A stretch of DNA of 64,000 nucleotides, taken from the NCBI RefSeq assembly GCF_900114495.1, contig NZ_FOZI01000001.1, positions 825,469 through 889,468 on the forward strand, given 5' to 3'. Made by a program: the position numbers and the translations under genes. This document shows, in pieces, positions 28,951 through 61,900 of the stretch (the first letter of the stretch is position 1; every line of letters begins with the position of its first letter). The notes beneath the pieces were generated by a model, which was given only the letters and a program-made list of their open reading frames with translations, was not told the DNA's origin and made no database searches. This DNA comes from Dyella sp. OK004 (GTDB taxonomy: Bacteria; Pseudomonadota; Gammaproteobacteria; Xanthomonadales; Rhodanobacteraceae).

Positions 28951-29352
28951 CCCAAGCACCCACCCCTCACCCCAACCCTCTCCCCAGAGGGGAGAGGGAG
29001 CAGTTGCTCCGAAAGGCGATGCGTAAGCGAGCCCGTGACGGGTCCCCTGTGGAGCGGTGAGGGTTGGACGATCAGGCCCCGAAGGGGGCGTCGGCAGGGA
29101 TGCCGATGCCTTTTCGACAGGACATGGATGTCCTGTCGAAAAGCCCGGCCAACCCTCACGAACCCGCAGGCGAAGCCGGAGGGCGCGTAAGAGGGGTGCC
29201 CTTCTCTTTGGTTACTTTCTCTTGGGCAAACAAGAGAAAGTGACTCGGACCGCGGCAGCGGTTCGAAAGCCCGCGGCAGGCGAGCCCGGCCGCGACAACG
29301 CGACCATCGAAGCGACAACGCCACTGGATTCCGGCCTACGCCGGAATGACGA
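28951..29352. repeat. Dispersed structured repeat, copy A
   Basis: A ~400-bp intergenic element made of successive hairpins. It holds CCTCTCCCC/GGGGAGAGG near 28976, an 11-bp outer stem GTGAGGGTTGG (29057-29067) with CCAACCCTCAC (29149-29159), and inside that GGCGTCGGCA/TGCCGATGCC (29087-29110) and a 15-bp stem TTTTCGACAGGACAT/ATGTCCTGTCGAAAA (29111-29142). Then follow GTTACTTTCTCTT/AAGAGAAAGTGAC (29211-29244), ACCGC-GGCA-GCGGT (29249-29262) and a final CCGG-type hairpin. Related copies lie near 49579, 59000 and 61411. It sits after ctaB and before the mgtA leader. Confidence 0.92.
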
Positions 29353-29385
29353 ATGCCAACCCAAAGTTGGATACGACAACCGACC

Positions 29386-30288
29386 TCAAACCGCGCGCTG
29401 AAACGCCAACCCCTGCTGCACCAACGGCTCCACCACCCAGTGGTCCACCAACAGAAAAGCAAACAACGCCATCAAATACACGATGGAATAATTGAACACC
29501 TTCATCGCAAACAACTCATCCGGCGGATTGAGCAACCGGATCGCGTAATAAAGAAAGCCCGCGCCAAGCACCACCGCCCCACCGAGATAAACCATCCCGC
29601 TATAACCCGTGAGTGCCGGCAACAAGGTCACCAGCACCAGCAGGATCGTGTAGAACAACACATGCCAGCGCGTGTACACCACGCCATGCGTCACCGGCAA
29701 CATCGGCACCTGCGCACGCGAGTAATCGTCGCGACGGAAAATCGCCAGCGCCCAGAAATGCGGCGGCGTCCACACGAAGATGATCAGGCATAGCTGCAAC
29801 GCGAACGCGTGCATCTCTCCGGTCACCGAAGTCCAGCCGAGCACCGGCGGAATCGCACCAGCGAGGCCGCCGATCACAATGTTCTGCGGCGTCGCGCGCT
29901 TGAGGTAGGCGGTATAGACCACCGCATAGCCGATCAGCCCGCCGAAGGTAAGCAACGCGGTCAGCGGGTTCACCAGGAACACCAGCACCAGCATGGAAAC
30001 GACGCCCAGCACCAACGCGAAAGTCATCACTTGATTCGGCGTGAGATGCCCAGTGGCTAGCGGCCGATGAGCAGTACGCGCCATCAGCTTGTCGATACGC
30101 TGATCGATCAGATGATTGAACGCCGCCGCCGAAGCCGACGCCAGCCAGATGCCCAGCGTGCCAAACACCAATGCACGCCACGGCGGGATGCCCGGCACGG
30201 CGAGGAACATGCCGATCACGGCGCAAAACACCAGCAGCGCCACCACGCGCGGCTTGGTCAATTCCAGGTATTCGTTGAAACGGCTCAT
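29386..30288 (-). CDS. ctaB: Protoheme IX farnesyltransferase (heme O synthase)
   Basis: A 300-residue UbiA-family membrane prenyltransferase that adds a farnesyl group to heme b to make heme O for the cytochrome oxidase. The prenyl diphosphate/Mg2+ motif [20 protein letters not shown] is present near residues 63-82, with the second Asp-containing loop later and about nine hydrophobic segments. The start at 30288 overlaps the stop of ctaA (ATGA), which indicates coupled translation; the upstream-open frame merely runs through ctaA and is rejected. The partner enzyme CtaA acts next in heme A synthesis. Confidence 0.95.
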
Positions 30289-31454
30289 ACGGGTCGTCCC
30301 AGGTTCTGGAACATGGTGTCGCTCGGTTTGCGCTGCGTGCGCGCCAGGGTGGCCAGCAATACAAACAACAGCAGTGCCGCCACACCGTTGTGCAGCGTCG
30401 CCACCGGTAGCGGCAGGCCGAAATGCACGTTGCTCACGCCGAGCAGTACCTGGCACACCAGCACCACCGCAATGGAGAATCCGAAACCACGCAGCCCGCG
30501 ACGCGACACCTTGTGCGCCAGCCAGGCGAGATAGCAGAACACCACCAGCGCGCCGATGCGGTGCGCGATCTGGATCGCGCTGCGCGCGGCCATATCGAGT
30601 ACGCCGCCTTCGTAGTTCACACCGATGCCGCGCCACAGCACGAAGCCTTCCTTGAAATCGGTCGGCGGCATCCATTGGCCCAGGCATTTGGGGAAATCCG
30701 TGCCGCAGGCCAGCGCGGCGTAGTTGGCGGACGTCCATCCGCCCAAAGCGATCTGCGCGATCAACAGCACGATACCGATCGCTACCAGGCGACGCAGCGC
30801 AGCGTGACTATCGCTTTGTGCGCCGACGCCCGCAAAACGCATCGCTGCGTAAGCGAGCAATGCGAATGTAGTGATGCCGCCCAGCAGATGGCCCATCACC
30901 ACGATGGGCTTCAGCAACAGGGTGACCGTCCACATGCCGAGCATGGCCTGGAAGATGATCACCGCCAGCGCGAGCACGCTGATGCGCCACGCGCCGGGGC
31001 GATCCAGCCCGATGGCAGCCAACAATGGCAAACCGATGGCGAAGGCTGACAGCACCGACGACCACATGTGCTCGCCATGCATATAGAAGCTGATGCCGCC
31101 AGCCGCGAAGATCGCGCCGAGAATCACCGCATAGCGCGCCCACGGGCGCCGCCAGCTTGCGATCAGCGCCAAGGCCAGCACCAGCACACCTAACGTGCCG
31201 GCGAGGAAGCGATGCACCTGTTCGCGCCAGGCCTTATGCGTTTCGAACGGGCGATCGGGAAAGGCCTGGTTGGCCTGGGCGATTTCATGCTGGTGTTCCG
31301 GCCAGCTGACCTTGCCGTAGCAGGTCGGCCAGTCCGGGCAGGACAGACCGGCGTTGGACAGGCGCACGAAGGCGCCGAACATCACCACGCCGAACGCGAA
31401 CACAGCGGCGAGCAGCGCCAGGCCGCGCAGGATTTTCACGGAACGGGACGACAT
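30285..31454 (-). CDS. ctaA: Heme A synthase (COX15/CtaA family)
   Basis: A 389-residue integral membrane oxygenase that converts heme O to heme A. Family marks are the N-terminal [22 protein letters not shown], the heme-binding histidines in [19 protein letters not shown] and in the C-terminal half ([27 protein letters not shown]), and eight hydrophobic segments. It overlaps ctaB by four bases downstream and shares its start region with the SCO-like gene upstream (TGATG), so the four assembly genes form one tight operon. Confidence 0.95.
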
Positions 31455-32023
31455 CAGCGGATCACCTTCTGCAGATCCTTGCGCAGACCGGTCGGATCGA
31501 AGCCGGCAGGATACAAGGCCAGCGCGGTGCCGTTGGATTCGACCAGCAGCGCGCTCACGCTGTCCGGCGTGGCCGGGCGCCAGTTGGCGAGTTTGCCGTC
31601 GCTGTCGTTGCCGATCTGCCAGAAGGTTTTCATGCCGTCACTGTCGGCATCGGCAGGCGGCGTGCCGATGAACAGCAGGCGCAGGCGCGGTGCGTTGCGA
31701 TTGAGCGTGATACGGGCGGCGGCCATCTTGGTCAGCGTATCCATACACTGCTTGGCGCAACCCGGACCCGGCAGCGCGATCAGGGTGAGCTTCGGTTCGG
31801 CGGCACGCCAAGTCCAGGTTTGGCCGTCCGCCGTCTGCACCCGCAGATTTTCGTCCGCGAAGTTGCGCTGCGGCATGATCGGTTCGCCATAGGCTTTGCC
31901 GGTCGGCTGCCAGCCGCTGAAAGTCAGCAGCCCGGCGGCGATGATCGGCGCGGCAAACACCGCCATGATCAAAAGAAGTTTCATGCGGCTACTGCGTTGT
32001 GCCGCGCTGGCTGGCTGGGTCAT
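31454..32023 (-). CDS. SCO-like cytochrome oxidase assembly protein, membrane anchored
   Basis: A 189-residue protein with one N-terminal membrane anchor (MKLLLIMAVFAAPIIAAGLL, about residues 14-34) and a thioredoxin-like periplasmic domain. The segment LPGPGCAKQCMDTLTKM contains a CxxxC copper-binding-type pair, as in SCO/SenC proteins that load the CuA site. A conserved distal His of classic SCO is not obvious to me, so it may be a divergent member. The start at 32023 follows from the hydrophobic anchor and from the 4-bp overlap with the SURF1 stop. Confidence 0.75.
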   Translation of the reverse strand: MTQPASAAQRSSRMKLLLIMAVFAAPIIAAGLLTFSGWQPTGKAYGEPIMPQRNFADENLRVQTADGQTWTWRAAEPKLTLIALPGPGCAKQCMDTLTKMAAARITLNRNAPRLRLLFIGTPPADADSDGMKTFWQIGNDSDGKLANWRPATPDSVSALLVESNGTALALYPAGFDPTGLRKDLQKVIR

Positions 32024-32760
32024 GGCGAGTCCGAGGCTTTCGGTTTGCGCCTGCGATGCAGGATGAAAAACATCACCACCGCCACAACGGCGAAGGTGAA
32101 CCATTGGAAGGCATAGGCCCGGTGTCGCGCCGGCGGCATCGAACTGAAGTCGGGCGTGTGCTCGCGCACGTAGATCGCGGCAGGATCGGCATCGAGCAAC
32201 AGCACGTGCGGATAGAGCAGCGCACCGAGGTCTTTGGACAGTTGTGGCACGTCCAGATAAACCGTGGTCTTGGGCCAGCTCGACTGGCGCGCGAGCGCAT
32301 CACCGCCCATCTCGAAACCCACACCCGGCGGCGGCTGATAGAGACCTTGCAGTTCGCGCTCACCCGTGGGGAGCGGCGGCAGTTGCGGCGCCTGATCCGT
32401 GCCATTGCCTGGCAGAAAGCCCAAGTCGACCAGCAGCAGGCGACTTTGGCCGGACATCCGGAACGGCACGTAGACCTCCACCCCACCGCGCTGATCGTGC
32501 TTGGGGTTGTCGAGCAGATAGATGCGATCGGCGAGGTATTCGCCATGCACTTGCACGTGCGGATAAGCGTCTGCCGTCGACGTATCCACCGCTGCGGCAA
32601 ATTCGCGCACAGGGGCAGTCGCCGACGTGGCATAGCGACGCAGAAGCTGCTCTTTCTCGTTCGCGCGATCGAGCTGCCACACGCCCAAACGCAGGAACAG
32701 CAAGGTTCCGGCCAGCGTCAGCAGCACGGCCCACCAGGCAGGACGCCGCAGCAGGCTCAT
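32020..32760 (-). CDS. SURF1 family cytochrome oxidase biogenesis protein
   Basis: A 246-residue membrane protein with two transmembrane helices at the ends (about 9-27 and 212-232) around a periplasmic domain, the standard SURF1 layout. Conserved features include the N-terminal LGVWQLDRANEKEQLL, the mid-protein LLDNPKHDQRGGVEVYVPF, VDLGFLPG, and the C-terminal HRAYAFQWFTFAVVAVVMFF. SURF1 delivers or inserts heme A in subunit I. It is the first gene of the assembly operon SURF1-SCO-ctaA-ctaB and is divergent from the DUF2909 gene. Confidence 0.93.
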   Translation of the reverse strand: MSLLRRPAWWAVLLTLAGTLLFLRLGVWQLDRANEKEQLLRRYATSATAPVREFAAAVDTSTADAYPHVQVHGEYLADRIYLLDNPKHDQRGGVEVYVPFRMSGQSRLLLVDLGFLPGNGTDQAPQLPPLPTGERELQGLYQPPPGVGFEMGGDALARQSSWPKTTVYLDVPQLSKDLGALLYPHVLLLDADPAAIYVREHTPDFSSMPPARHRAYAFQWFTFAVVAVVMFFILHRRRKPKASDSP

Positions 32761-32819
32761 ACAGAGCCACCACAGGCGAACGCTATACTGCGGATATCGT
32801 CGTCGCTTGGACCAATCAC

Positions 32820-33035
32820 GTGGAAACCATCTACAAATATGCGCTGGTGATCCTGCTGCTGGTGGTGCTGTTCAATCTCGGTCAAGCGCTGTATTTCATG
32901 ATGACCGACAAGGACGGCAGCAAGCGCACGGTATGGGCGTTGACCCGCCGTATCGGACTCTCGCTGCTGCTCATCCTGATGGTCGTGTTCGGCATCTGGA
33001 TGGGCTGGCTGCACCCGCACGGCGTGGGTCAGTAA
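32820..33035 (+). CDS. DUF2909 twin-transmembrane protein
   Basis: A 71-residue protein starting at GTG 32820 (METIYKYALVILLLVVLFNLG), with two transmembrane helices separated by a basic loop (TDKDGSKRTVWALTRRIG). This is the DUF2909 family, habitually found next to SURF1 in proteobacterial oxidase loci and presumed to help assembly. It is read opposite to its neighbours and is convergent with ctaE, with a bidirectional terminator between them. Confidence 0.88.
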   Translation: METIYKYALVILLLVVLFNLGQALYFMMTDKDGSKRTVWALTRRIGLSLLLILMVVFGIWMGWLHPHGVGQ

Positions 33036-33091
33036 TTGTAGCGGGCCGTCAGGCCCAGCGCCTCGCACGCGATGTCGCGGCCAAGGCGCCC

Positions 33092-33168
33092 TTGTAGGGG
33101 CGCACCCTGTGCGCGGAAAAACCTACGAAGCGATGGCCTGAGGTTCGCGCACAGGGTGCGCTCCTACA
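33092..33168. repeat. REP/BIME-like inverted pair, copy 1
   Basis: GTAGGGGCGCACCCTGTGCG (from 33094) and, 30 bp later, its near-inverse CGCGCACAGGGTGCGCTCCT (to 33165) form an inverted pair; each arm also contains an internal GCGCAC..GTGCGC palindrome. The same core GCGCACCCTGTGCGCG recurs at 55727-55834. The layout matches repetitive extragenic palindromes arranged head to head. Confidence 0.8.
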
Positions 33169-33174
33169 GGAACA

Positions 33175-33203
33175 AAAAAGCCCGCCGGAAGGCGGGCTTT
33201 TTG
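33175..33203. terminator. Bidirectional intrinsic terminator
   Basis: AAGCCCGCC-GGAA-GGCGGGCTT flanked by an A run on the left and a T run on the right. It serves the DUF2909 gene (+) and ctaE (-), which converge here. Confidence 0.92.
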
Positions 33204-33221
33204 CTGTGGCGCCCAGGCGCC

Positions 33222-34109
33222 TCAGAGGATGTAGACGAACATGAACAGGCCCAGCCATACCACGTCCACAAAGTGCCAGTACCAGGCCACCGCTTCAAAG
33301 GCGAAGTGGTGTTCCTTGGTGAAATGGCCCTTGGCGCAGCGTAGCCAGATGATCGCCAGCATGATCGTACCCAGCGTCACGTGCATGCCGTGGAAGCCGG
33401 TGAGCATGAAGAACGTTGAACCGTAGACGCCGCTCTGCAGGGTCAGGTTGAGGTCCTTATAGGCCTCGATGTACTCGTGGGCCTGGAAGTACAGGAAGGT
33501 GGCGCCCAGCAGCACGGTCAGGCCCAGGAACACCAGGATCTTGCCGCGATGGCCGGCCTTCAGCGCGTGGTGCGCGATGGTCACGGTGACGCTGGAGCTG
33601 AGCAGGATCAGCGTGTTCAGCAGCGGCAGGCCCCACGGCAGCACCGTCTGGAAATCGCCACCGATCTTGGCTGGGCCGCCACCACCGTTGGCGCCCCATG
33701 CCGCGGCATATTCGCTCCACAGGAACTGATGGGTCAGCACGCCGTGGCCTTCGCCACCCAGCCATGGCACCGAGAACATGCGCGCGTAGAACAGTGCGCC
33801 GAAGAAGGCCGCGAAGAACATCACCTCGGAGAAGATGAACCACATCATGCCCATGCGGAACGAGGTGTCCACCTGGCTGTTGTAGCTGCCGGCAAGTGAT
33901 TCGCGGATCACCGAGCGGAACCAGCCGAAGAACATCAGCAGGATGCCGACGAAACCGATCGTCAGCGCGGTCTTGCCGAAGCCGGCCTCACCGGGCTGCG
34001 CGTTCAGCCAGTGCGCGGCACCGAACACGGTGATGAACATGACGACCGCGGCCACGATCGGCCAATAGCTCTTGGACGGAACGAAATAAGCGCCTTGCTG
34101 ATGACCCAT
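33222..34109 (-). CDS. ctaE: Cytochrome c oxidase subunit III
   Basis: A 295-residue seven-helix subunit III of the aa3-type oxidase. Recognisable parts are the N-terminal AYFVPSKSYWPIV, the long loop with WPPP-type replaced region before TLILLSSSVTVTIAHHALK, QAHEYIEAYKDLNLTLQSGVYGSTFFMLTGFHGMHV with its conserved Glu and His residues, and the C-terminal FEAVAWYWHFVDVVWLGLFMFVYIL. It lies 76 bp after the 43-residue protein gene in the order ctaC-ctaD-small-ctaE. Confidence 0.96.
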   Translation of the reverse strand: MGHQQGAYFVPSKSYWPIVAAVVMFITVFGAAHWLNAQPGEAGFGKTALTIGFVGILLMFFGWFRSVIRESLAGSYNSQVDTSFRMGMMWFIFSEVMFFAAFFGALFYARMFSVPWLGGEGHGVLTHQFLWSEYAAAWGANGGGGPAKIGGDFQTVLPWGLPLLNTLILLSSSVTVTIAHHALKAGHRGKILVFLGLTVLLGATFLYFQAHEYIEAYKDLNLTLQSGVYGSTFFMLTGFHGMHVTLGTIMLAIIWLRCAKGHFTKEHHFAFEAVAWYWHFVDVVWLGLFMFVYIL

Positions 34110-34185
34110 GGTGAAATCCCCGTGGATTTTCTCTTGTTACTTCCACCCCGCCGTACAGCACGGGGAAATGCAAAACATGACTGGC

Positions 34186-34317
34186 TTACCTGACTCGCAG
34201 CGCCTGATAGATCGACAGCAGGAAGATCGCGAAGGCGATGGCACCCACCACCAGGGCGGTGCGCTTCACGCCCTTTCGGCGTGCTTCCTTGATCGAATCC
34301 AGATGTTGCTGAGTCAT
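34186..34317 (-). CDS. 43-residue membrane protein between ctaD and ctaE (oxidase-associated)
   Basis: A short frame beginning MTQQHLDSIKEARRKGVKRT and continuing into one hydrophobic helix (ALVVGAIAFAIFLLSIYQAL), ending RVR. The position between ctaD and ctaE, a basic N-terminal arm and a single helix match the small 'cytochrome oxidase small assembly protein' described in proteobacterial oxidase loci. Codon use is like that of its neighbours. It is 51 bp from the ctaD stop, in the place where cox11/ctaG is often found as well; no ctaG is present here. Confidence 0.8.
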   Translation of the reverse strand: MTQQHLDSIKEARRKGVKRTALVVGAIAFAIFLLSIYQALRVR

Positions 34318-34367
34318 GGAACGCAGTTTCCGGATGCTCCGGCCCGGGCCGGAGCATCTTTCATTGA

Positions 34368-35984
34368 TCAGTCTTCAACGTGGCCGTGAGCCAGCTCGTC
34401 GTCGTGAATCACCGGCGGCAGCTCGAAGGTGTGATACGGCGCCGGCGACGGCACGGTCCACTCCAGACCCTTGGCGCCTTCCCACACACGGTCGGCGGCC
34501 TTCTTCTTGGAGAACCACACCGCGTGGACGATCACGCCGAGGAAGATCAGCTGCGCGGCGCCGAACAGGAAACCGCCGATGGAGCTGATCATGTTGAAGT
34601 TGGCGAACGCGACGTTGTAGTCCGGGATACGGCGCGGCATGCCGGCCAGACCCAGGAAATGCTGCGGGAAGAACAGCACGTTCACCCAGATCACGCTGTT
34701 CCAGAAATGCACCTTGCCCCAGAACTCGCTGTACATGTGGCCGGTCCACTTCGGCAGCCAGTAGTACGTTCCGCCGATGATGGCGAAGATCGCGCCGGTC
34801 ACCAGCACATAGTGGAAGTGAGCCACCACGAAGTACGAGTCGTGGTACTGGAAGTCGGCCGGGGCCAGCGCCAGCATCAAGCCGGAGAAGCCGCCGATGG
34901 TGAACAGGATGACGAAGGCGACCGCGAACAGCATCGGCGTCTCGAAGGTCATCGAGCCGCCCCACATGGTGCTGACCCAGTTGAACACCTTCACGCCCGT
35001 GGGCACCGCGATCAGCATCGTCGCGTACATGAAGAAGATTTCGCCGCCTAGCGGCAGACCCACCGCGAACATGTGGTGCGCCCACACGATGAACGACAGG
35101 AAGGCGATCGAGGCAATCGCGTACACCATCGCCTTGTAGCCGAAGATCGGCTTGCGGGCGAAGGTCGGGATGATCTCCGAGACCAGGCCGAAGGCCGGCA
35201 GGATCATGATGTAGACCTCGGGGTGCCCGAAGAACCAGAAGATGTGCTGGAACAGAACCGGGTCACCGCCACCGGCGGCATTGAAGAAGCTGGTGCCGAA
35301 GTAGGCGTCGGTGAGCAGCATGGTCACCGCACCGGCGAGCACCGGCATCACGGCGATCAGCAGGAAGGCGGTGATCAGCCAGCTCCACACGAACACCGGC
35401 ATCTTCAGCAGGTCCATGCCCGGCGCGCGCATGTTGAGGATGGTCGCGATGATGTTGATCGCGCCCATGATCGAGCTGATGCCCATCAAGTGCACCGCGA
35501 ACACCACGTAGGCGACCGAATCACCCTGCAGCGACAGCGGCGGGTACATGGTCCAGCCGCCGGCCGGGCCGCCGCCCGGCAGGAACAGGGTGGACAGCAG
35601 CAGCGCGAAGGCGAACGGCAGGATCCAGAACGACAGGTTGTTCATGCGCGGCAGCGCCATGTCCGGCGCACCGATCATCAACGGGATCATCCAGTTGCCG
35701 AGGCCCACGAAGGCCGGCATCACCGCGCCGAAGATCATGACCAGCGCATGCATCGTGGTCATTTCGTTGAAGAAGTACGGCTGCACCAGCTGCAGGCCGG
35801 GCTTGAACAGCTCGGCGCGGATCACCATGGCGAAGCTGCCGCCGATGAAGAACATCAGCAGCGAGAAGACCAGGTACAGCGTGCCGATGTCTTTGTGGTT
35901 GGTGGACATGCACCAACGCACGAAGAAATTCTTCGGCGCGCCGTGATGGTCGTCGTGGTGATCGTGAGTGGCTGCGTGGGCCAT
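34368..35984 (-). CDS. ctaD: Cytochrome c oxidase subunit I
   Basis: A 538-residue catalytic heme-copper oxidase subunit with twelve membrane helices. The CuB/cross-linked site WFFGHPEVYIMILPAFG, the second CuB pair in VWAHHMFAVG, and the heme ligands in VAHFHYVLVTG are intact, as are K-channel residues in the helix after GHPEVY. The His-rich N-terminus (HAATHDHHDDHHGAPK) precedes the conserved FVRWCMSTNHKDIGTLY. It reduces O2 to water and pumps protons, fed by the CuA subunit encoded just upstream. Confidence 0.98.
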   Translation of the reverse strand: MAHAATHDHHDDHHGAPKNFFVRWCMSTNHKDIGTLYLVFSLLMFFIGGSFAMVIRAELFKPGLQLVQPYFFNEMTTMHALVMIFGAVMPAFVGLGNWMIPLMIGAPDMALPRMNNLSFWILPFAFALLLSTLFLPGGGPAGGWTMYPPLSLQGDSVAYVVFAVHLMGISSIMGAINIIATILNMRAPGMDLLKMPVFVWSWLITAFLLIAVMPVLAGAVTMLLTDAYFGTSFFNAAGGGDPVLFQHIFWFFGHPEVYIMILPAFGLVSEIIPTFARKPIFGYKAMVYAIASIAFLSFIVWAHHMFAVGLPLGGEIFFMYATMLIAVPTGVKVFNWVSTMWGGSMTFETPMLFAVAFVILFTIGGFSGLMLALAPADFQYHDSYFVVAHFHYVLVTGAIFAIIGGTYYWLPKWTGHMYSEFWGKVHFWNSVIWVNVLFFPQHFLGLAGMPRRIPDYNVAFANFNMISSIGGFLFGAAQLIFLGVIVHAVWFSKKKAADRVWEGAKGLEWTVPSPAPYHTFELPPVIHDDELAHGHVED

Positions 35985-36037
35985 GGCCTTGCACCTCTAC
36001 CTAATGCGAATAACGTGAAACTGCGTGAGCAGCCGGA

Positions 36038-36967: not shown

Positions 36968-36987
36968 GTCTTGCACCTTTGTTGAAC

Positions 36988-37473: not shown

Positions 37474-37667
37474 GGGAATACCGGCGTGCCTGGAACCCGC
37501 GAATGATAGGCCGCAGCGTCCGAACGGGCAAGAATGACGCAGGTGCTTGACATCGCACCGACACAACATCAGTGGCCAGCGCAAAACCTCACGTACGGGT
37601 GCGTCCGCTCTTGGCGAGCGCGTACAATCCGGAAATTTCCGCGCTTTCCCACCTTGTTGACGCCCCT

Positions 37668-48136: not shown

Positions 48137-48142
48137 AACACG

Positions 48143-49578: not shown

Positions 49579-49980
49579 CGAGCACCCATCACCCCTCCCC
49601 AACCCTCCCCTGTCTCACGGGACTAGCTTCGCGTCGCAAGCAGGGGAGGGAGCAAAAGCACTGAAACGCGAAGCGAGCCGTGACCGACGCCTTGCGTAGC
49701 GGTGAGGGTTCGACGATCAGTTCTAGAAGAAAGCCATCCCGACGCCTGACACTGGAAACGGCGCAGCTACAAAGCACACTGCCTGCTCTCAGGCCATTTC
49801 TCTTTGGTTACTTTCTCTTTGGGCCAGCAAAGAGAAAGTGACCCGAGCCGCGGCAGCGGTTCGGAAGCCCGCGGCAGGCGAGCCAGGGCACGCAGACGCT
49901 AAGACCGAGCGATAACGCCACTGGATGACCAGCTTCGCTGTTGAAAAGCTCCTCCGGCCTTCGCCGGAATGACGAGGTAG
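49579..49980. repeat. Dispersed structured repeat, copy B (divergent)
   Basis: This copy between the aldehyde dehydrogenase and fadL keeps the opening CACCCCTCCCCAACCCTCCCC block, GGTGAGGGTT, the hairpin GTTACTTTCTCTTTG / CAAAGAGAAAGTGAC, GCCGC-GGCA-GCGGT and the CGATAACGCCACTGGAT tail with a CCGG hairpin. The inner stems seen in copies A, C and D (about 29087-29142 in A) are replaced by unrelated sequence. The rest of the gap 49981-50071 shows nothing else. Confidence 0.85.
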
Positions 49981-50103: not shown

Positions 50104-50136
50104 CATCCATCCAAAACTCCAACCGCTAAATCGCGA

Positions 50137-51573: not shown

Positions 51574-51637
51574 CGGATAGCTCCTGCTTATCGTTGGTCC
51601 GAATCGGGTCACAGTAAGGGGCTGACCGGCAAGAAAA

Positions 51638-51655: not shown

Positions 51656-51871
51656 ATCCCCGGCCGGCACTGTGCCGGCTCGATAGAGGGCTTGCAAGTG
51701 CGGTCGCAGCAATCTGCGAGGCGATACATGCCATTACCCACCGTTTGCCATCCAATGCCGGGAGATAACGACGCCACGCGTTGACCGCAGTGACTTATCT
51801 GAGGACTATGTCGGTCTGCCGTTTGCGCCGATACACGTGCGCCTTTCCTAGTTTTAGTCGCCGGGTGTCCC

Positions 51872-52168: not shown

Positions 52169-52241
52169 ATTCGTCCGTATCCGGCCGCCGTTAACGCCGG
52201 GTTACCTTCTGCCGTTTTGACGATTCCTATACTCCCCGCCT

Positions 52242-55200: not shown

Positions 55201-55721
55201 TGGATGCCGGTGCCGACGTCAACGCCGTCGACGCGCGCGGCCATAGCGCACTGCATGCCGCGGCGCAGTTCGGTTTTGAACACAACGACAGCCTACGCGC
55301 GCGCCGCCTGTTCGACACGCTGCTCAAGCGCGACGCCGACGTGAACCGCGCCGATGCCGAAGGCAAGACACCACTGCTGTTGCTGCTCGGTGCGCATATG
55401 CGCCCGGGCAGCGACTGCGATGCCACCCACATCGGCGCCCTGGTGCCGGTGCTGCTGGATGCCGGCGCGCGTCTTGAGCACGCCGATCAGCGCGGCGTCA
55501 CCGCGCTACACGCGTGTGCCATGCACGCCTTGTTGCCGCCGGCCCGCGTGCTGCTTGCGCGCGGCGCCGACCGCGCGGCAGTCGATGCGTTCGGCCGCTC
55601 TGCCGCGGACGTGGCGCGCCAGCTTGGTTTTGTCGATATCGCGCACGAACTCGCTGCGCGCAGCGGTGCGATGCCCAGCGTGCGGCAGACCCTGCGTCAG
55701 CCGGCCCAACCAGCCGATTAA
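52242..55721 (+). CDS. Large membrane-anchored ankyrin repeat protein
   Basis: A 1159-residue protein. Residues 1-230 hold about five hydrophobic helices (for example FLQALLWFVPGLLAVAVAAL, LVMFTGYVVLVFVLIAWPML, ALLVLAFTAIVLSGLYGVLP), followed by a Pro/Ala linker (PTPAPKPKPAPP). From about 265 to the end there are some 20 ankyrin repeats with the usual G-x-TPLH-x-A and LL-x-x-GAD-x-N signatures (DGNTALHGAVLTGEP, DRQGASALLHACGTGHRDI, DARGHSALHAAAQFG), interrupted around residues 590-740 by a less regular helical part. Ankyrins mediate protein contacts; the partner is unknown. The N-terminal membrane region is not a family I recognise. Confidence 0.88.
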   Translation: MSYSKTRRPPPFLQALLWFVPGLLAVAVAALSAHPLSLIPLLLANALTMAAVCHAIGFDPEPQYGRTVLRRGAAHLVMFTGYVVLVFVLIAWPMLKLNQEHSLGATLMLAAALVIALTALWRVWPAFGLVYVWDDAYPPQSDGSWIFTATARSVAFGRHLSREERFFTHYLPAAFALLVLAFTAIVLSGLYGVLPPELRITALAIYGVVLLPLGCLVIANRTLRALLCEGRRPLRQPAAGVEEARPTPAPKPKPAPPVLNEQERTAGTPEQAQALLAATRDGDIERALALVEAGADPNTAPPTSDRDQRPVLMLAALLPDTRLLRALIAKGADVNRTSGGFTPLLAVTRDSWHGRAEAVMTLLANGASPLVTDADGNTALHGAVLTGEPMVAAMLLDAGAPVNALNRSRVSPLAAACRAANWPLVKFLLEHGAKPTPPDGEPALVAAAGIADDDVEGVRLLLKHRAAVNAVDARHRSALMEAAAEGHEQIARVLRGAGADVVLADHRGSTALMEAARAGAVGIVQLLAEAQPDARVRDSHGRDALTLACQSPHAHAETVRALLSLGAEPKAVGSDGRSALDHAAAAGRWDLVTLLDPETPLPTNLRFDEAMPEGADTPAHLLDALRFGHWAVVSTFTQRVREWPQSQLAQLYLDLAGPGLGSARRWLLDHALSPEARLQPQLVDDAEVAEGVPHAALPPLGRRLFDALLLQLPASSEAIEDLLDAGATPAGTGLLAQALQRLDNNSAATIALALNLLERGADPFGTDTRERTPVHLAAAQGQLPVLQALLTRGCNPNTRDTQGRTPLFAALEHGEKALPLVRALVAHGADAEATDANGETPLGLAFEHDEIERWLDWGDWTRPRRPLRADDLPAAAAVGALAAVERLLDLGYAVNTQDRQGASALLHACGTGHRDIAARLLDAGADTTLAAANGMTPLAAAVAARRDTLVSLLMAHDVAADQRLPGDATALMVAAAMGYPEIAEQLLDAGADVNAVDARGHSALHAAAQFGFEHNDSLRARRLFDTLLKRDADVNRADAEGKTPLLLLLGAHMRPGSDCDATHIGALVPVLLDAGARLEHADQRGVTALHACAMHALLPPARVLLARGADRAAVDAFGRSAADVARQLGFVDIAHELAARSGAMPSVRQTLRQPAQPAD

Positions 55722-55726
55722 GGTAA

Positions 55727-55834
55727 GAGCGCACCCTGTGCGCGATGCGGCCCGCCAGGGCCGCTGTGTTGGATGCAATTACGAGGCAAGAGCACGGCCC
55801 TCACGGGGGGCCGCATCGCGCACTGGGTGCGCTC
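55727..55834. repeat. REP/BIME-like inverted pair, copy 2
   Basis: Arm 55727-55753 (starting GAGCGCACCCTGTGCGCG) and arm 55808-55834 are inverted repeats of 27 bp with one mismatch, separated by 54 bp. The core is shared with the copy at 33092-33168. The right arm lies inside the end of the glycosyltransferase gene. Confidence 0.85.
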
Positions 55835-56876
55835 CCACAGGTAGGTGCCACCAGGCCTGTACGACGGTTTCCATGTCGATCTGATCGATCCGGCCAGTCT
55901 TCGGCAGGCCGCCGATAACCGTGACGGCACTGCCGCGTCCACTGCGTGGCGCCCACGTGCAAGGCCAGCGATTGCCGAATAGCACCACCAAGGGGCAGCC
56001 AACGGCCGCGGCAAGATGTGCCGGCCCGGTATCCACCGAAACCATGCTGTGCGCGATTTCCAGCAGGCCTCGCAAATGGCCCAGCGGCAGGCCGCCGGCG
56101 GGTGCGATCACATGCGGGTGATTCGTCGCGTAGCGGATCGTCTCCAGATAACCCGCTTCCGCCGCCGAACCACATAGCAACACGCGCGCCTCCGGGTGCC
56201 ATTGCAGGATGGCGCGCGCCAGCCCCGCCCAGCGTTCGACCGGCCATGATTTGTCGTCGTCGTTAGCGGCACGCACGCCGTTCCAGCGCATGGTGCGTTT
56301 GTTCGCGGGTTGCAGCAGCACCAGCGGGCGGCCGTCGATACCCTGCGCGCGCAGCCAGACGCGTACGTCGGCACGCTCACTTGCCGTGGGAAGGAGCTGT
56401 GGCGCAGCCGATAAAACAGCCTGGCACATCGCGGTGCCCTCGAAAGCCGCAGGTGTCCGATCGGCGAAACGCAGCAGCCAGTCCACCCAATGCTCGCCCT
56501 CCTGCATTGGAATGTCCTCGATGAACACGCATTGCTCTGGCGGCACGCGCGCCAGGGCCAGCATGGGACGCACCTTGGTGCGAGTGCGCACATCGGGCTC
56601 GCAGATATAGAACGGCGCGTCACTCACTTGGCGCAATGCCAGGGCGACGCGCAGACGCTGCGGATGTAACCAGAGCGATCCGTGCTGACTCGGAAAATGC
56701 AGCACTTCACCCACGTCGTCATTGGGTTCGTACAACACCCGAGACCAATCGCCTATCGCCACCAGGCGGCAGGGCGCGCCGTAGCGCTGGCGCAGCTTGT
56801 GCAACAGCGGCTGCAACATCACCGTGTCGCCGAGGCGACCGAACCGGATGACTACCGGAGATTGGGTTGCAGGCAT
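55779..56876 (-). CDS. Glycosyltransferase family 9 (heptosyltransferase-like)
   Basis: A 365-residue GT-B enzyme of the ADP-heptose:LPS heptosyltransferase superfamily. Visible marks are the N-terminal VIRFGRLGDTVMLQPLLHKLRQRYG with the GDTV acceptor-side Asp, the C-terminal nucleotide-sugar region RVLLCGSAAEAGYLE, and SVDTGPAHLAAAVGCPLVVLFG. It lacks other LPS genes around it, so the acceptor is unclear. The start at 56876 is chosen; a TTG at 56897 is possible. The final ~20 residues (VGAHPVRDAAPREGRALAS) are encoded by the REP arm and are unlikely to be ancestral. Confidence 0.85.
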   Translation of the reverse strand: MPATQSPVVIRFGRLGDTVMLQPLLHKLRQRYGAPCRLVAIGDWSRVLYEPNDDVGEVLHFPSQHGSLWLHPQRLRVALALRQVSDAPFYICEPDVRTRTKVRPMLALARVPPEQCVFIEDIPMQEGEHWVDWLLRFADRTPAAFEGTAMCQAVLSAAPQLLPTASERADVRVWLRAQGIDGRPLVLLQPANKRTMRWNGVRAANDDDKSWPVERWAGLARAILQWHPEARVLLCGSAAEAGYLETIRYATNHPHVIAPAGGLPLGHLRGLLEIAHSMVSVDTGPAHLAAAVGCPLVVLFGNRWPCTWAPRSGRGSAVTVIGGLPKTGRIDQIDMETVVQAWWHLPVGAHPVRDAAPREGRALAS

Positions 56877-57035
56877 AGGCACACGGGACACATGCAAGCA
56901 TCGGGACCGGCCCGACCCGGAAGCGGCCTACCCCCCGGCAGCACGGCTTCGCGACCCCGCTATGTTTACCCGTTATGTGTCGAAATGAGTTACGGAAATA
57001 ACGCAATTTGCCGCGCCATCAGCGCGGATTCACGC

Positions 57036-58868
57036 TCAGCTTTGATCCCGCAGTAGCTCCGCCGGCGGCTGCTCCAGTTCCTGCTTGGCAGTGGGTTCCT
57101 CGTCGGCATCGAACAGATGCAGCAAGTCGTTGAGTGCTTCCTTGGAGGTCTGCACCAGACGGGTCTCGTCGTCGTAAACCAAGTACTGCGCCTTCAGCAG
57201 CTTCACATCGTGCTGACGGAAGCGCTCCACGCGGTCGGCCGCCAGCTCGCTGGACAGGCCCAGCGCCTCCAGGGTCTTGCGCGTCATCTTGAGGCTGGAG
57301 TGGAAGGTCTCGCGCACCGGCTCCTCCACCCCCAGGTCCATCAGACGGAACACGTGCTGGCGATTGCGTGCCCGCGCGATGATCTTCAGGTGCGGATACT
57401 GGCGGCGCACCAGGCGCGCGATACGCAGATTGGCTTCCGGATCATCCGTCGCCAGCACAAACACCTCGGCCTGATCGGCCTGCGCCGCACGCAGCAGGTC
57501 AGGTCGCGCCGGATCGCCGAAAAATAGTGACGTATTGTTGAAGCGGCGCAGCGTATCCATCTGCTCCACCGACGACTCCAGCGCCACAAACGGAATGCGT
57601 TGCGCGCGCAGCACGCGGCCGACGATCTGCCCCATGCGGCCAAAGCCGGCGATGATCACACGCGGCGCGTCGGTTTCGATGGTGTCGTACTCGCGCTCCG
57701 GCTTCTTCGCCTTCACGTCGATCAGCTTGGCGATCATCACCACCAGCAATGGCGTCACTGCCATCGACAAGGTGATCGCCAGCACGATCAGGTTCTGTAG
57801 CGACTCGCCGATCAAACGCTGTTCCGCCGCCTGCTTTAACACCACGAAAGCGAATTCGCCGCCGCAGGCCAGCAACACCACCATGCGCAGGGTATCGGCG
57901 TTATTGAGCGCGCCGACGATGCGCCCCAGCGGCCACAGCAGCAGCCCCTTCACCGCCAGCACGCCCAGGGTCAGGCCCAGCACCAGCAAGGGTTTGTGCA
58001 GCAGCGTCGCCACATCCATCGACATGCCGACGCTGATAAAGAACAGACCAAGCAGCAGGCCTTTGAACGGCTCGATATGCGATTCCAGCTCGTGCCGATA
58101 CTCCGAATCCGCCAGCAGCACGCCGGCCAGGAACGCGCCCAGCGTCGACGACACGCCAACTTCTTCCATCAACCACGCCGTGCCCAACACCACCAGCAAG
58201 GCTGTCGCGGTGGAGACCTCTTGCGCATTCGCACGCGCCACGAAGCGGAACACCGGACGCAGCAGATAACGGCCACCTACCACCACCGCCACGATCGCAC
58301 CGATCGTCTGCAGGATCGCTCGCGAGTCCAAACCGTGCGGCGAGGCGGAGCTCGCCAACAGCGGCACCATCGCGATCAGCGGAATAGCGGCGAGATCCTG
58401 AAACAGCAGAATGGCGAAGGTCTGCCGCCCATAAGCCGAACCAGCCTCTTTGCGCTCCGCCAGAATCTGCAAACCAAACGCGGTGGACGACAGCGCCAGG
58501 CTGCCGCCGACAATAGCCGAGGCATTGGCCGTGAGGCCGAACAGATAAAAACAGGCCAGGCCAATCGCCAGACCGCAAGACAGCACCTGCAATACACCGG
58601 CACCAAACACCGAACGCCGCATCACCCACAAACGCTGCGGCGACAACTCCAGGCCGATCACAAACAGCATCAGCACCACACCAAACTCAGAGATCGTCGC
58701 CACACCCTCGGTGTCACTGACTAACCCAAGCACCTGCGGCCCGATCGCCATACCCGCCAACAAAAAGCCCAGCACCGCGCCCAAACGGAAGCGCTTGGTC
58801 AGCGGCACGGCAATCACCGTCGCCAGCAAAAACACCAGCGCGGCATTGAGAAAAGAATGGCTTTCCAC
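57036..58868 (-). CDS. Kef-type monovalent cation:proton antiporter
   Basis: A 610-residue CPA2 antiporter. About twelve hydrophobic segments come first, starting VESHSFLNAALVFLLATVIAVPLTKRFRLGAVLGFLLAGMAIGP, with the ALSSTAFGLQILAE motif of Kef proteins. A cytoplasmic Rossmann KTN/TrkA-N domain follows (RVIIAGFGRMGQIVGRVLRAQ, then LATDDPEANLRIARLVRRQYP). Such proteins export K+ and acidify the cytosol during electrophile stress; glutathione control is possible but not shown. GTG 58868 is chosen because homologues begin near ESHSFL; the frame is open 24 codons further upstream. Confidence 0.92.
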   Translation of the reverse strand: MESHSFLNAALVFLLATVIAVPLTKRFRLGAVLGFLLAGMAIGPQVLGLVSDTEGVATISEFGVVLMLFVIGLELSPQRLWVMRRSVFGAGVLQVLSCGLAIGLACFYLFGLTANASAIVGGSLALSSTAFGLQILAERKEAGSAYGRQTFAILLFQDLAAIPLIAMVPLLASSASPHGLDSRAILQTIGAIVAVVVGGRYLLRPVFRFVARANAQEVSTATALLVVLGTAWLMEEVGVSSTLGAFLAGVLLADSEYRHELESHIEPFKGLLLGLFFISVGMSMDVATLLHKPLLVLGLTLGVLAVKGLLLWPLGRIVGALNNADTLRMVVLLACGGEFAFVVLKQAAEQRLIGESLQNLIVLAITLSMAVTPLLVVMIAKLIDVKAKKPEREYDTIETDAPRVIIAGFGRMGQIVGRVLRAQRIPFVALESSVEQMDTLRRFNNTSLFFGDPARPDLLRAAQADQAEVFVLATDDPEANLRIARLVRRQYPHLKIIARARNRQHVFRLMDLGVEEPVRETFHSSLKMTRKTLEALGLSSELAADRVERFRQHDVKLLKAQYLVYDDETRLVQTSKEALNDLLHLFDADEEPTAKQELEQPPAELLRDQS

Positions 58869-58999
58869 GTACTCGCCCGACAGCGGAGGGATAAGGTGAT
58901 TATTCCACGCGGCTGCGCACAGCGAACGCCGAGGGCGCATGAAATTGCGCGCCGCGTGTCATTCCGTTGCACACCGGAATGACCAGGTAGAAGCGTCAT

Positions 59000-59371
59000 C
59001 CCAAGCACCCACCCCTCACCCCAACCCTCTCTCCGGAGGGGAGAGGGAGCACGGCTCTAAAAGGCGATGCGAAGCGAGCCCGTAACGGGTCCCCTGTGGA
59101 GTGGTGAGGGTTGGACGAAAAGGCCCGCAGGGGAACCGGCATGGATGCCGGTTCCTTTTCGACACGACAGGGACGTCGTGTCGAAAAGCCCGGCCAACCC
59201 TCACGGACCCGCAGGCGTAGCCGGAGGGCGCGTAAGAGGGGTGCCTTTTCTTTTGGTTACTTTTCTTTGGGCAAGCAAAGAAAAGTGACTCGGCCTCCGG
59301 CAGGAGGACGAAAGCCCGCCGCAGGCGAACCCGGTCGCGACAACCAGGCGACAACGCCACTGGATTATCGC
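59000..59371. repeat. Dispersed structured repeat, copy C
   Basis: Close relative of copy A. It has GGAACCGGCA/TGCCGGTTCC (59132-59155), TTTTCGACACGAC/GTCGTGTCGAAAA (59156-59187), GTTACTTTTCTTTG/CAAAGAAAAGTGAC (59256-59289) and CCTCC-GGCA-GGAGG (59294-59307). Each differs in sequence from copy A yet remains paired. It fills the gap between the Kef gene and the LysR gene; 58869-58999 shows nothing else. Confidence 0.92.
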
Positions 59372-59380
59372 CAGCACCGC

Positions 59381-60280
59381 TCAACCGTGCAAAGGAAACC
59401 CGTCCAACCGCTGCCTCAAAATACTTTCCAACCGCGCCACCGCAGGCGCCAACTCCGCCTCCGCCCGATGCAAACAAAGCCCAAGCACCGGCATCACAGG
59501 AAGCCCCACCTCCCCCACCTCCAACACCCGCACCGCCCCCGGCAACCCCACCCGCGTCCGCAACGCCACCCCCAACCCCGCCGCCACCGCCGCCCATATC
59601 CCGGCAAGGCTCGCACTGGTAAACGCAATCCGCCAAGGCACCCCCGCGCGATCCAGCGCCGCCGTCGCCGCCGTCCGCATCAGGCATGGCGCATCCAGCG
59701 AAACCAGCGGCAACGGTTCACCGCTATCGCGCGACCAGCCAGGCTCACCATCCGCCGCACCGATCCAGCACATCGGCGTCTCGCCGAGACACTCGACATA
59801 CGGAGTAGCGACGCCCGCATCCCATGCCAGCGCCAGATCGAGCCGACCAGTGGTCACCCGATCGAGTAATTCCGCATTGCGCGCAATGCGCGCCTCGATG
59901 CGCACCTTGGGATGCGCGCGTGCGAAACGGCCGAGCACATCCGGCAACAACGACTCGCCGAAATCCTCCTGCAGACCCAGCCGTATCCAGCCTTCGAGTT
60001 CCGCACCGTGAATCGCGGCCGCGGCTTCGTCATTGAGTTCGAGCAGGCGGCGCGCATAACCCAGCATGGTTTCGCCCGCGTCGGTCAGCGCCATGCCGCG
60101 GCCCTGCCGGCGCAAGAGCGGCGTACCCGCCTGCTCCTCCAGCTTCTTCAACTGCGCGCTCACCGCCGAGGTGGAGCGGCCAAGCCGATCGGCCGCCTTG
60201 GCGAAACTGCCCAGCTCCACGCCGAGCGCGAAGCTGCGCAGTACGTCAAGGTCGAAATGAATCCGCCGTGTCATGACCAT
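59381..60280 (-). CDS. LysR family transcriptional regulator
   Basis: A 299-residue LysR regulator. The winged HTH is at residues 8-66 (LDVLRSFALGVELGSFAKAADRLGRSTSAVSAQLKKLEEQAG, then LLRRQGRGMALTDAGE). The effector domain starts with the pattern WIRLGLQEDFGESLLPDVLGRFARAHPKVRIEARI and resembles the LrhA-like subgroup. It is divergent from the DUF4865/tautomerase pair, with about 100 bp between start codons, and so probably controls it. Confidence 0.93.
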   Translation of the reverse strand: MVMTRRIHFDLDVLRSFALGVELGSFAKAADRLGRSTSAVSAQLKKLEEQAGTPLLRRQGRGMALTDAGETMLGYARRLLELNDEAAAAIHGAELEGWIRLGLQEDFGESLLPDVLGRFARAHPKVRIEARIARNAELLDRVTTGRLDLALAWDAGVATPYVECLGETPMCWIGAADGEPGWSRDSGEPLPLVSLDAPCLMRTAATAALDRAGVPWRIAFTSASLAGIWAAVAAGLGVALRTRVGLPGAVRVLEVGEVGLPVMPVLGLCLHRAEAELAPAVARLESILRQRLDGFPLHG

Positions 60281-60289
60281 CCCAAATTA

Positions 60290-60307
60290 ATGGATTATCA
60301 ATCCCAT
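60290..60307. promoter_or_regulatory. Possible LysR binding site between divergent genes
   Basis: ATGGATT-ATC-AATCCCAT is an imperfect inverted repeat (one base missing in the left arm) in an AT-rich stretch just upstream of the LysR start. The placement is usual for a LysR autoregulatory site. Confidence 0.35.
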
Positions 60308-60377
60308 ATTTCCCGATTTTCAGGACAACATTGCCGCGCTACGGTACGCCTCGTCAATGCCGCGAAAGGGCTTCCCC

Positions 60378-60965
60378 ATGCTCGCCATGCAATACAGCTT
60401 CGTCCTGCCCGCCGACTACGACATGGCGGTCATCCGCCAGCGCATCGCGGACAAAGGCCATCTACTCGACCACTTCCCCGGCCTTGGCTTCAAGGCCTAC
60501 CTCAGCGCCGACCGGCGCGGCGGCAGACTGAGCACCCGGCACAACCTGTATGCCCCGTTCTATCTGTGGAACCACAGCGACGGCATGAACGCTTTCCTCG
60601 GCAGCAGCGGCTTCGCCGGCCTCACCCAGGCCTTCGGCTGGCCCACCATACAAATGTGGTCGGTATGGCATGCCCACGTTTCGCCCGATGCCACCCAGGC
60701 CATCTGCGCCTCGCGCGACATCGTCGCGATCCCGCCCTATACCGATCTCGATGAACTGCGCGAACAGGAACGCCAGCTCGCGCAAAACGACATCGCTGAC
60801 GGCGCACTCGCCGCCGTCAGCGCCTTCGAACCCACCCAGTGGAACCTGATCCGCTTTCGCCTGTGGGGCGAACTGCGCGCCGAACTGGCACGCGACCATC
60901 GCCAGCTCTACGACGTCGGCCACGTCTCCCTGCCCCAGCGCACACTCGCTGAACTCACACCCTAG
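60378..60965 (+). CDS. DUF4865 family protein
   Basis: A 195-residue soluble protein beginning MLAMQYSFVLPADYDMAVIRQRIADKGHLLDHFPGLGFKAYL, with YAPFYLWNHSDGMNAFL in the middle and WSVWHAH later. This matches DUF4865 as I recall it, a family found next to LysR regulators and tautomerases, probably of the dimeric alpha/beta barrel (ABM-like) fold. The start at 60378 has AAAGGG seven bases upstream. It is 12 bp before the tautomerase gene. Confidence 0.82.
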   Translation: MLAMQYSFVLPADYDMAVIRQRIADKGHLLDHFPGLGFKAYLSADRRGGRLSTRHNLYAPFYLWNHSDGMNAFLGSSGFAGLTQAFGWPTIQMWSVWHAHVSPDATQAICASRDIVAIPPYTDLDELREQERQLAQNDIADGALAAVSAFEPTQWNLIRFRLWGELRAELARDHRQLYDVGHVSLPQRTLAELTP

Positions 60966-60977
60966 GAGTCCTCTTCC

Positions 60978-61358
60978 ATGCCACTCGTTCGCATCGCCCT
61001 CCGCCGCGGCCAGTCCCCGCAATACCTCGCCGCGCTGCGCAACGGCATCTACCGCGCCATGCGCGAAACCTTCAACGTCCCTGAAAACGACCGCTTCATC
61101 CTCATCAACCAACACGACCCCGACGAATTCGACTACGACCCCAACTACCTCGGCATCTCACGCAGCGACAAGCTCGTGATCGTGCAGATCGCCTGCAACA
61201 ACACCCGCACCGTCGAACAGAAACAGGCGTTCTACAAACGCATGGCGGAAGTGCTTGCGGAAGAGCCGGGGCTGAGGCCGGAAGATCTCTTCATCAATCT
61301 GCTTGAGACGGCAAAAGAGAACTGGTCGTTTGGGAATGGGATTGCGCAGTACGTGTGA
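60978..61358 (+). CDS. Tautomerase family protein
   Basis: A 126-residue protein of the tautomerase superfamily, fused-length type (two 4-OT-like halves). Pro follows the initiator Met (MPLVRIALRRGQSPQYL), providing the catalytic N-terminal proline after Met removal. The C-terminal part has RPEDLFINLLETAKENWSFG, as in the MSAD-like/Tautomerase_2 group. TAGGAG precedes the ATG. It is paired with DUF4865 under a divergent LysR. The substrate is probably a beta-keto or halo-acid type compound, but this is inference. Confidence 0.88.
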   Translation: MPLVRIALRRGQSPQYLAALRNGIYRAMRETFNVPENDRFILINQHDPDEFDYDPNYLGISRSDKLVIVQIACNNTRTVEQKQAFYKRMAEVLAEEPGLRPEDLFINLLETAKENWSFGNGIAQYV

Positions 61359-61410
61359 GTGATTGACTGATGCGTGCAGGTGCATCAACCCAGCAAGTAG
61401 CAACGCTATG

Positions 61411-61900
61411 CCGAGCACCCACCCCTCACCCCAACCCTCTCCCCGGAGGGGAGAGGGAGCACGGCTTTTCTGCTCTTGCAGGGCGATGCGAAGCGAGCCG
61501 TGCACGGGTCCCCTGTGGAGCGGTGAGGGTTGGACGAAAAGGCCCGCAGGGGGATCGGCATGGATGCCGATCCCTTTTCGACACGACAGGGACGTCGTGT
61601 CGAAAAGCCCGGCCAAGCCTCACGGACCCGCAGGCGTAGCCGGAGGGCGCGCAAGAGGGGTGCCTTTTCTTTTGGTTACTTTTCTTTTGGTTACTTTTCT
61701 TTACTCCGGGCATCCATGCCCTCCGCCCTTCGGGCCAGCTGCGCTGTTCGCAGCCGCTCCTGCGGCTGCGTGGGCAAGCAAAGAAAAGTGACTCGGCCTC
61801 CGGCAGGAGGACGAAAGCCCGCGGCAGGCGAGCCAGAACACGCAGACGCAACAACCGAGCGACAACGCCACTGGATTCCGGCCTGCGCCGGAATGACGAA
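61411..61900. repeat. Dispersed structured repeat, copy D (expanded)
   Basis: Close relative of copies A and C with GGGATCGGCA/TGCCGATCCC (61551-61574), the TTTTCGACACGAC hairpin, and a CCTCC-GGCA-GGAGG hairpin. The GTTACTTTTCTTT arm is tandemly duplicated and a ~70-bp GC-rich insert with its own palindromes separates the two arms of that hairpin (about 61670-61780). It lies between the convergent tautomerase and hemB genes; 61901-61973 shows only a short CTCTCCC/GGGAGAG hairpin. Confidence 0.9.

Follow-up and report, generated by a model that had tools for sequence, protein, structure and literature searches.

A 64,000-nucleotide stretch of the genome of Dyella sp. OK004 (contig NZ_FOZI01000001.1, positions 825,469 to 889,468; hereafter the window) carries four dispersed copies, A to D, of an element built of successive stem-loops, and the question it raises is whether such a repeat is maintained as DNA or as a folded RNA, and to what end. 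The explanation that we favor, with a probability of about 0.6, is that the element is a mobile-like repeat encoding a structured RNA, which is probably bound by CsrA/RsmA and carries a triple-helix pseudoknot as its 3′ cap. A first-pass annotation had assigned one layout to the four copies. All four exist, but A, C and D belong to one subtype (type 1) and B to another (type 2), which lacks the shared inner hairpins and has the 5′ box, the pseudoknot, the 3′ hairpins and the palindromic end in common with type 1 (Table 1). The compensatory changes claimed between the copies are present and extend further than was claimed: the inner stems are those of hairpin 1 (HP1) in copies A, C and D, the swap of a G-C for a C-G pair in the next stem distinguishes HP2 of copy A from that of copies C and D, the change in the later arm is that of CTTTCTCTT/AAGAGAAAG versus CTTTTCTTT/AAAGAAAAG, and the change of ACCGC-GGCA-GCGGT to CCTCC-GGCA-GGAGG in the last hairpin could likewise be located. 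The T/G mismatch described for the GTTAC/GTGAC stem occurs in all four window copies but is not fixed in the genome, where two loci (L003 and L030) have GTAAC.

Comparison across many genera reveals that the 3′ half of the element is an H-type pseudoknot, with S1 and S2 as its helices and a loop of pyrimidines, L1, in which the bases just 5′ of the pyrimidine tract pair with the loop of the GTTAC hairpin (S2) to form S1. The sequence of S1 varies widely (GTGCCC/GGGCAC, GCTC/GAGC, TGGCC/GGCCA, TGTCC/GGACA and GGGTCGCC/GGCGACCC, among others), and yet an S1 of at least 4 bp could be formed in 82 of the 93 distinct copies (107 hits, from which six unparsed ones were dropped and duplicates collapsed), as compared to a mean of 36 and a maximum of 46 over 500 loop shuffles. 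Over 58 distinct ungapped sequences, 94.4% of the S1 and S2 cells are paired, 163 cells are changed on both sides, and the covariation score is 0.475 against 0.167 for shuffled alignments, with none of 500 shuffles reaching the former value. Taken separately, S1 is paired in 85.5% and S2 in 97.9% of cells, with both-side changes in four of five and 12 of 13 pairs, respectively, and sliding the partners by one to three columns lowers pairing to 47.5-57.1%. These family statistics come from copies in other genomes. The pseudoknot of copy C is matched at 96.5 bits (G000:C8:884708-884781) by R1, a model built from 28 pseudoknot sequences that include copy C. The alignments thus provide strong support for S1 and S2 covarying in a pseudoknot topology, and the structure of the element as a whole is likewise strongly supported.

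L1, as in TTTCTTTT, mirrors the 5′ arm of S2, as a consequence of which T faces A and C faces G when L1 is laid in parallel along the purine strand of S2. In this register 654 of 713 positions match, counted over tracts of 4 to 9 nucleotides, and the match is perfect in 60 of 93 copies. The antiparallel register gives 457 of 713, shifted registers give 46-57%, and when L1 is exchanged at random between copies whose tracts have the same length, 530 ± 10.5 positions match, with a maximum of 574 in 5000 permutations (kinship ignored). At six positions the purine strand has T; L1 has G at three of these (L130, L132 and L141, at two tract sites) and T, T and C at the remaining three. The G.T-A triplet is the exception that accommodates G opposite T. 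The pattern of L1 is that predicted for a U.A-U/C+.G-C major-groove triple helix, with L1 in a putative parallel Hoogsteen register with the purine strand. Since the predicted triple helix is of considerable length and can be read off the covariation, it would be well suited for testing whether RNA triple strands can be deduced from sequence.

An A(N)GGA motif in a hairpin loop is a signature of CsrA/RsmA sites, and at least two hairpins exposing A(N)GGA are found in type 1 only. The 5′ half of type 1 resembles the Rfam family TwoAYGGAY (RF01731), which consists of a pair of hairpins whose loops read A(N)GGA(N). In copies A, C and D, an outer stem encloses two such hairpins, one with the loop AUGGAU and the other with AGGGAU or AGGGAC, where the Y at position 2 of AYGGAY is relaxed. 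The 5′ domain of copy C scores 40.4 bits against RF01731, just under the gathering threshold of 43, and a scan of the window with Rfam at gathering thresholds gave no match, all window copies scoring below 43 bits. Permissive scans recovered TwoAYGGAY at the element, together with a few neighboring known RNAs and with matches below threshold to various models, those of microRNAs among them. One other copy in the same genome passes the threshold (46.5 bits), as do loci in other genomes of the class (L108, L099, L114, L116 and L113, at 43.9-64.5 bits) and the loci L324 and L292. A class-wide search found TwoAYGGAY in 24 of 369 genomes, and 21 of the 30 loci taken have the pseudoknot within 100 nucleotides downstream on the same strand. 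The pseudoknot-free loci (L330, L331, L335, L336, L338, L340, L342, L346 and L354) show that the motif has a second habit. CsrA binding of TwoAYGGAY was proposed earlier from motif matching (PMC4333381), and the 2010 survey (PMC2864571) lists it as a probable RNA that is probably not cis-regulatory.

The strand of the product is indicated by the loops, S1 and the core of S2. Among 126 copies from 74 genomes, A(N)GGA(N) loops closed by at least five Watson-Crick pairs number 113 on the sense strand and none on the antisense strand. When all strong upstream hairpins of 93 copies are considered regardless of loop, GGA is found in 87 of 179 sense loops but in only one of 184 antisense loops. The loops include AUGGAU, AGGGAC, AGGGAU, AGGA, ACGGAC and AAGGAG, and ACAAGGAUGU at L034 fits the CsrA selection consensus. 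The wobbles of the S2 core are 44 G-U against one A-C when read on the + strand of the element. Copy C folds well on both strands (z-scores of -6.7 on the + and -7.9 on the - strand), and thus the strand cannot be told from folding energy by itself; copy B folds more weakly (z-score of -2.8). The proposal of the first-pass annotation that selection acts on a folded molecule, possibly an RNA, is supported by the covariation, the G-U bias of the S2 core and the sense-only GGA loops.

"Four-copy" is a correct description for the window, whereas the 4.96-Mb genome contains 149 exact sites of the core pattern and none of its reversed control; at least one element is counted twice among the 149, and variants such as C2:28032 and C2:67182 escape the pattern. 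Of eight loci binned as type 1 in a separate comparison, one (L002) is of type 2 and two (L003 and L030) are antisense duplicates. In 462 kb taken without selection (contig C2 and the window), from which the type counts derive, 24 copies were found, five of type 1 and 19 of type 2. All 24 are intergenic by the gene calling made in this analysis: nine lie between convergent genes, seven run against both neighbors, five run with both, two lie between divergent genes and one is at a contig end. The flanking gene ends are 3′ ends in 31 of 47 cases, versus 126 of 276 in intergenic regions of at least 150 bp (p = 0.004). Neighboring copies (33 pairs among 74 loci) are divergent, i.e., inverted, in 27 pairs, convergent in three and tandem in three; fifteen copies from G227 can be aligned across a more extended composite, whose second, inverted arm is visible where the sequence is long enough. 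The site orthologous to that of copy B is empty in all five congeners examined, and that of copy C is empty in the four examined (G001, G002, G003 and G005). At the D site, no copy is present in G002 and G005, and in G001 the core is absent with the flanking modules kept. At this last locus (L320) the structured core is missing in its entirety, as though it had been acquired or lost in one piece. The junctions at the B, C and D sites are too diverged to define target-site duplications or exact ends. The presence and absence of copies B, C and D at orthologous sites is thus lineage-specific, which fits the structured mobile element suggested earlier, and the element appears as a mobile-like repeat.

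Dyella sp. OK004 itself encodes CsrA, from one csrA gene (PF02599), and csrA is found in 48 of 57 and in 19 of 22 other pseudoknot-bearing genomes (two sets, with G571 in both). GGA loops occur in 40 of 62 csrA-positive but in two of 11 csrA-negative genomes (Fisher p = 0.0066), counting G494, which has a partial csrA match of 51 bits, as positive, and leaving aside G452 and seven copies with short upstream sequence. The assemblies of G488 and G611, the two csrA-negative genomes with GGA loops, are fragmented (87% completeness, 7% contamination), and the near-complete csrA-negative genomes with usable copies all lack GGA loops (nine of nine, six of them from one family). The association between GGA loops and csrA is suggestive only; a link of the element RNA to CsrA is likely. 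In several loci (L098, L100, L105, L106, L107, L109 and L110), the GGA hairpins are replaced by a hairpin of the TTTGAGCG..CGAGTT kind, in which tandem sheared G-A pairs might form; such hairpins occur in csrA-negative genomes, though likewise in G132 and in the small csrA-bearing genomes G051 and G148.

We infer that the element is transcribed in its + direction and that the RNA is the conserved product. The 5′ domain of type 1 would form a TwoAYGGAY-type three-way junction with two, sometimes three, A(N)GGA(N)-loop hairpins, and the 3′ domain an H-type pseudoknot whose L1 occupies the S2 major groove to make a triple helix; a short GC hairpin comes next. A single CsrA dimer is able to hold two sites of the same RNA molecule, in keeping with the paired loops, and in the likely mechanism each RNA would capture one CsrA/RsmA dimer across its two loops. 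Exonucleases can be stopped by triple-helix elements, in keeping with the pseudoknot being placed 3′, and the latter would protect the RNA from the 3′ side. The outcome would be either stable decoys or CsrA-responsive 3′ untranslated regions. A broader formulation, which we advance tentatively and believe somewhat more apt to fail than to hold, is that of a class-wide mobile RNA family, with scores to hundreds of copies per genome, in which the fold is kept more than the DNA sequence, paired CsrA sites are often found where CsrA exists, and the copies act together as a distributed sponge or as interchangeable CsrA-responsive 3′ ends. The unexplained TwoAYGGAY motif would thereby be placed within a larger structure, with a characteristic mode of occurrence in genomes and a role open to testing, and the findings suggest that one common class of gammaproteobacterial intergenic repeats encodes RNA instead of being inert DNA. 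The pseudoknot is present in Xanthomonas, a genus in whose sequenced genomes one study reported no homologues of known Csr/Rsm decoys (PMC7694677).

Several observations weigh against the explanation favored here. Type 2, which lacks the GGA hairpins, forms the majority of the surveyed copies, and no more than 14 of 23 upstream genes point in the same direction as the element. No sigma-70-type promoter was found on the sense strand of copies C and D, the two scanned. Nine of the 30 TwoAYGGAY loci (in eight genomes) have no adjacent pseudoknot, which implies that the two domains are separable. The G-U cells of the S2 core often fall at one position (17 of 58 sequences, columns 20-49), and the GGA stems, with four G-U, two A-C and 29 other cells, carry no strand signal. 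By family, the association with csrA has a p-value of 0.37, falling to 0.039 only without the two metagenome-assembled genomes G488 and G611, and 22 of the 62 csrA-positive genomes have no GGA loops, many of these with a single copy examined. In addition, all shuffles and permutations ignore kinship among the sequences.

The alternatives partly overlap with our explanation, and their odds need not sum to 1. At the DNA level, the hairpins and the mirror repeat might act as single-stranded or triplex DNA, for example as transposase-recognized ends akin to those of repetitive extragenic palindromic (REP) sequences or miniature inverted-repeat transposable elements (MITEs), with the paired changes arising through template-switch correction of palindromes. 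Mirror repeats can form triplex DNA, and the high copy number, the prevalence of divergent pairs, the lineage-specific sites, the folding of both strands, the lack of strand signal in the GGA stems and the presence of one Y1 transposase (Y1_Tnp) gene in the genome are consistent with such an element; however, the GGA loops and the S2-core wobbles are strand-specific, and S1 covaries despite lying outside the simple S2 palindrome, which makes a DNA-level element unlikely. We are doubtful, though less dismissive, of a structured RNA with a function unrelated to CsrA, be it ligand-sensing, ribozyme-like, an intermediate of spread or one whose GGA loops bind another protein. The csrA-positive genomes devoid of GGA loops and the lineages in which TTTGAGCG..CGAGTT-type loops take their place point towards it; against it, the loops vary at the N positions of A-N-GGA-N while the stems change freely (one of the two scans being motif-directed), and the near-complete csrA-negative genomes, albeit mostly of one family, lack GGA loops altogether.

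The first-pass annotation had also considered a multi-hairpin terminator, and a bidirectional terminator or gene-boundary element would account for the intergenic placement of all surveyed copies and for the excess of gene 3′ ends at their flanks. Nevertheless, copies C and D, the two scanned, have no intrinsic terminator (a GC hairpin followed by a U-tract) on the + strand, and the single terminator-like site in them is on the - strand and does not exceed shuffles. Copy B adjoins a separate terminator-like hairpin that is also present at the empty site, and neither termination nor a boundary role explains the GGA loops, the pseudoknot and the triple match. On the two copies scanned we reject the terminator reading, and a bidirectional terminator or boundary element is very improbable. 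The relatedness of copies within one genome might be ascribed to random decay of one ancestral inverted repeat, but the shuffle and slide controls and the recurrence of the same architecture across many families render this scarcely credible, and it was rejected on the S1/S2 covariation. Taken together, an RNA-encoding repeat is the most economical reading.

Searches with R1 at E ≤ 1e-5 gave matches in 87 of the 369 genomes sampled from the class. Across Pseudomonadota, 55 of 299 genomes were matched when the limit was set to E ≤ 0.001, many of the matches outside the class being weak. Among the matches listed, one pattern identifies the genera Dyella, Xanthomonas, Lysobacter, Stenotrophomonas and Pseudoxanthomonas, and further taxa include Dokdonella, Rudaea, Halopseudomonas, Pseudomonas abyssi, Methylomonas and others. 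Two genomes of the same family as the window (G007 and G018) carry the element, and a plasmid collection adds Aeromonas caviae, Pseudoalteromonas and the fusobacterium Ilyobacter polytropus; in the last, a pseudoknot with matching L1 (L323, 901-972) is found, with six places in one record. Copy C had no match in phages, and a Pseudomonas-like copy had none in plasmids. A literature search by sequence letters returned, among the matches listed, only apparently unrelated primers, and topic searches of the open literature (titles and abstract starts) yielded no description of the element among the matches listed.

Table 1. Copies of the element in the window and their constituent parts (positions are those of the window).
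Feature	Position	Strand	Description
Copy A, type 1	28951-29352	+	5′ box, two GGA hairpins, HP3, pseudoknot, 3′ hairpin, palindromic end
Copy A 5′ domain	29056-29159	+	outer stem GGTGAGGGTTGG/CCAACCCTCAC encloses HP1 and HP2; same layout as in the RF01731 alignment of copy C
Copy A HP1	29087-29110	+	loop AGGGAU
Copy A HP2	29111-29142	+	loop AUGGAU
Copy A HP3	29163-29183	+	GCA/GGA internal loop, assigned by eye
Copy A pseudoknot	29196-29244	+	S1 GTGCCC/GGGCA; L1 TTCTCTTT 29202-29209; S2 29211-29223 with 29232-29244
Copy A 3′ hairpin	29245-29266	+	ACCGC-GGCA-GCGGT
Copy B, type 2	49579-49980	+	5′ box like that of type 1, pseudoknot, 3′ hairpins; different 5′ domain without GGA hairpins
Copy B pseudoknot	49792-49842	+	S1 GGCC/GGCC; L1 TTTCTCTTT; S2 49807-49820 with 49829-49842
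Copy C, type 1	59000-59371	+	
Copy C 5′ domain	59103-59204	+	outer stem; TwoAYGGAY 40.4 bits (gathering 43)
Copy C HP1	59132-59155	+	loop AUGGAU
Copy C HP2	59156-59187	+	loop AGGGAC
Copy C pseudoknot	59241-59289	+	S1 GTGCC; L1 TTTCTTTT 59247-59254; S2 59256-59268 with 59277-59289
Copy D, type 1 with insertion	61411-61900	+	
Copy D 5′ domain	61522-61623	+	outer stem, HP1 and HP2
Copy D HP1	61551-61574	+	loop AUGGAU
Copy D HP2	61575-61606	+	loop AGGGAC
69-nucleotide insertion in copy D pseudoknot	61703-61771	+	

The later hairpin of copy D holds the 69-nucleotide insertion together with a doubled 5′ arm. The insertion is hairpin-rich and breaks the pseudoknot loop, and it also starts in another copy (G000:C2:202673, L061); many further places match from window position 61681 (query position 4582) onward. 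A C-rich hairpin box, CCCTCACCCCAACCCTCTCCCC/GGGGAGAGGGAG, is present at 28957-29000, 49583-49612, 59006-59049 and 61416-61459. It flanks the element on one side or on both, recurs at L158 and L159, loci from a different family, and resembles boxC-type repeats. The palindromic end CCGGC..GCCGGAATGACG, at 29320-29351, 49917-49974 and 61867-61898, resembles dRS3-type repeats, and one congener (G004, L081) has a palindrome of this kind by itself at its B site. Two further Rfam matches were noted, viz., sRNA-Xcc1 above threshold in L116 (94-177) and a sub-threshold match to SymR in L036 (279-351), a congener locus.

Among known systems, TwoAYGGAY (RF01731) shares with the element the outer stem closing two hairpins with AYGGAY/ANGGAN loops, but the Rfam model comprises the junction only, to which the element adds HP3, the predicted triple-helix pseudoknot and the 3′ hairpin, as well as a dispersed and often paired arrangement that lies outside the model. 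The H-type pseudoknots of SAM-II, SAM-V and telomerase, which have a major-groove triple helix, share with the element the order S1-L1-S2 and a pyrimidine L1 that lies, or in the element is predicted to lie, in the S2 groove; the element differs from all three in its S2 of 9-14 bp, with up to nine predicted triples, and in its dispersed, intergenic copies. The Csr/Rsm decoys (CsrB, RsmY/Z and the Xanthomonas RsmU, PMC7694677) likewise expose GGA loops on several hairpins, whereas the element is present in many genomic copies with two or three sites each and no promoter seen in copies C and D; the element loci that were scanned with Rfam gave no match to a Csr/Rsm family. Finally, the R178/R200 repeats of P. 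fluorescens and REP, bacterial interspersed mosaic element (BIME) and MITE repeats, compared by description only in the case of R178/R200, share with the element an intergenic, multi-copy, gene-tail-biased occurrence and stem-loops (PMC2718517). That paper treats R178/R200 as DNA repeats, MITE-like or possible terminators, whereas the element described here looks like an RNA fold.

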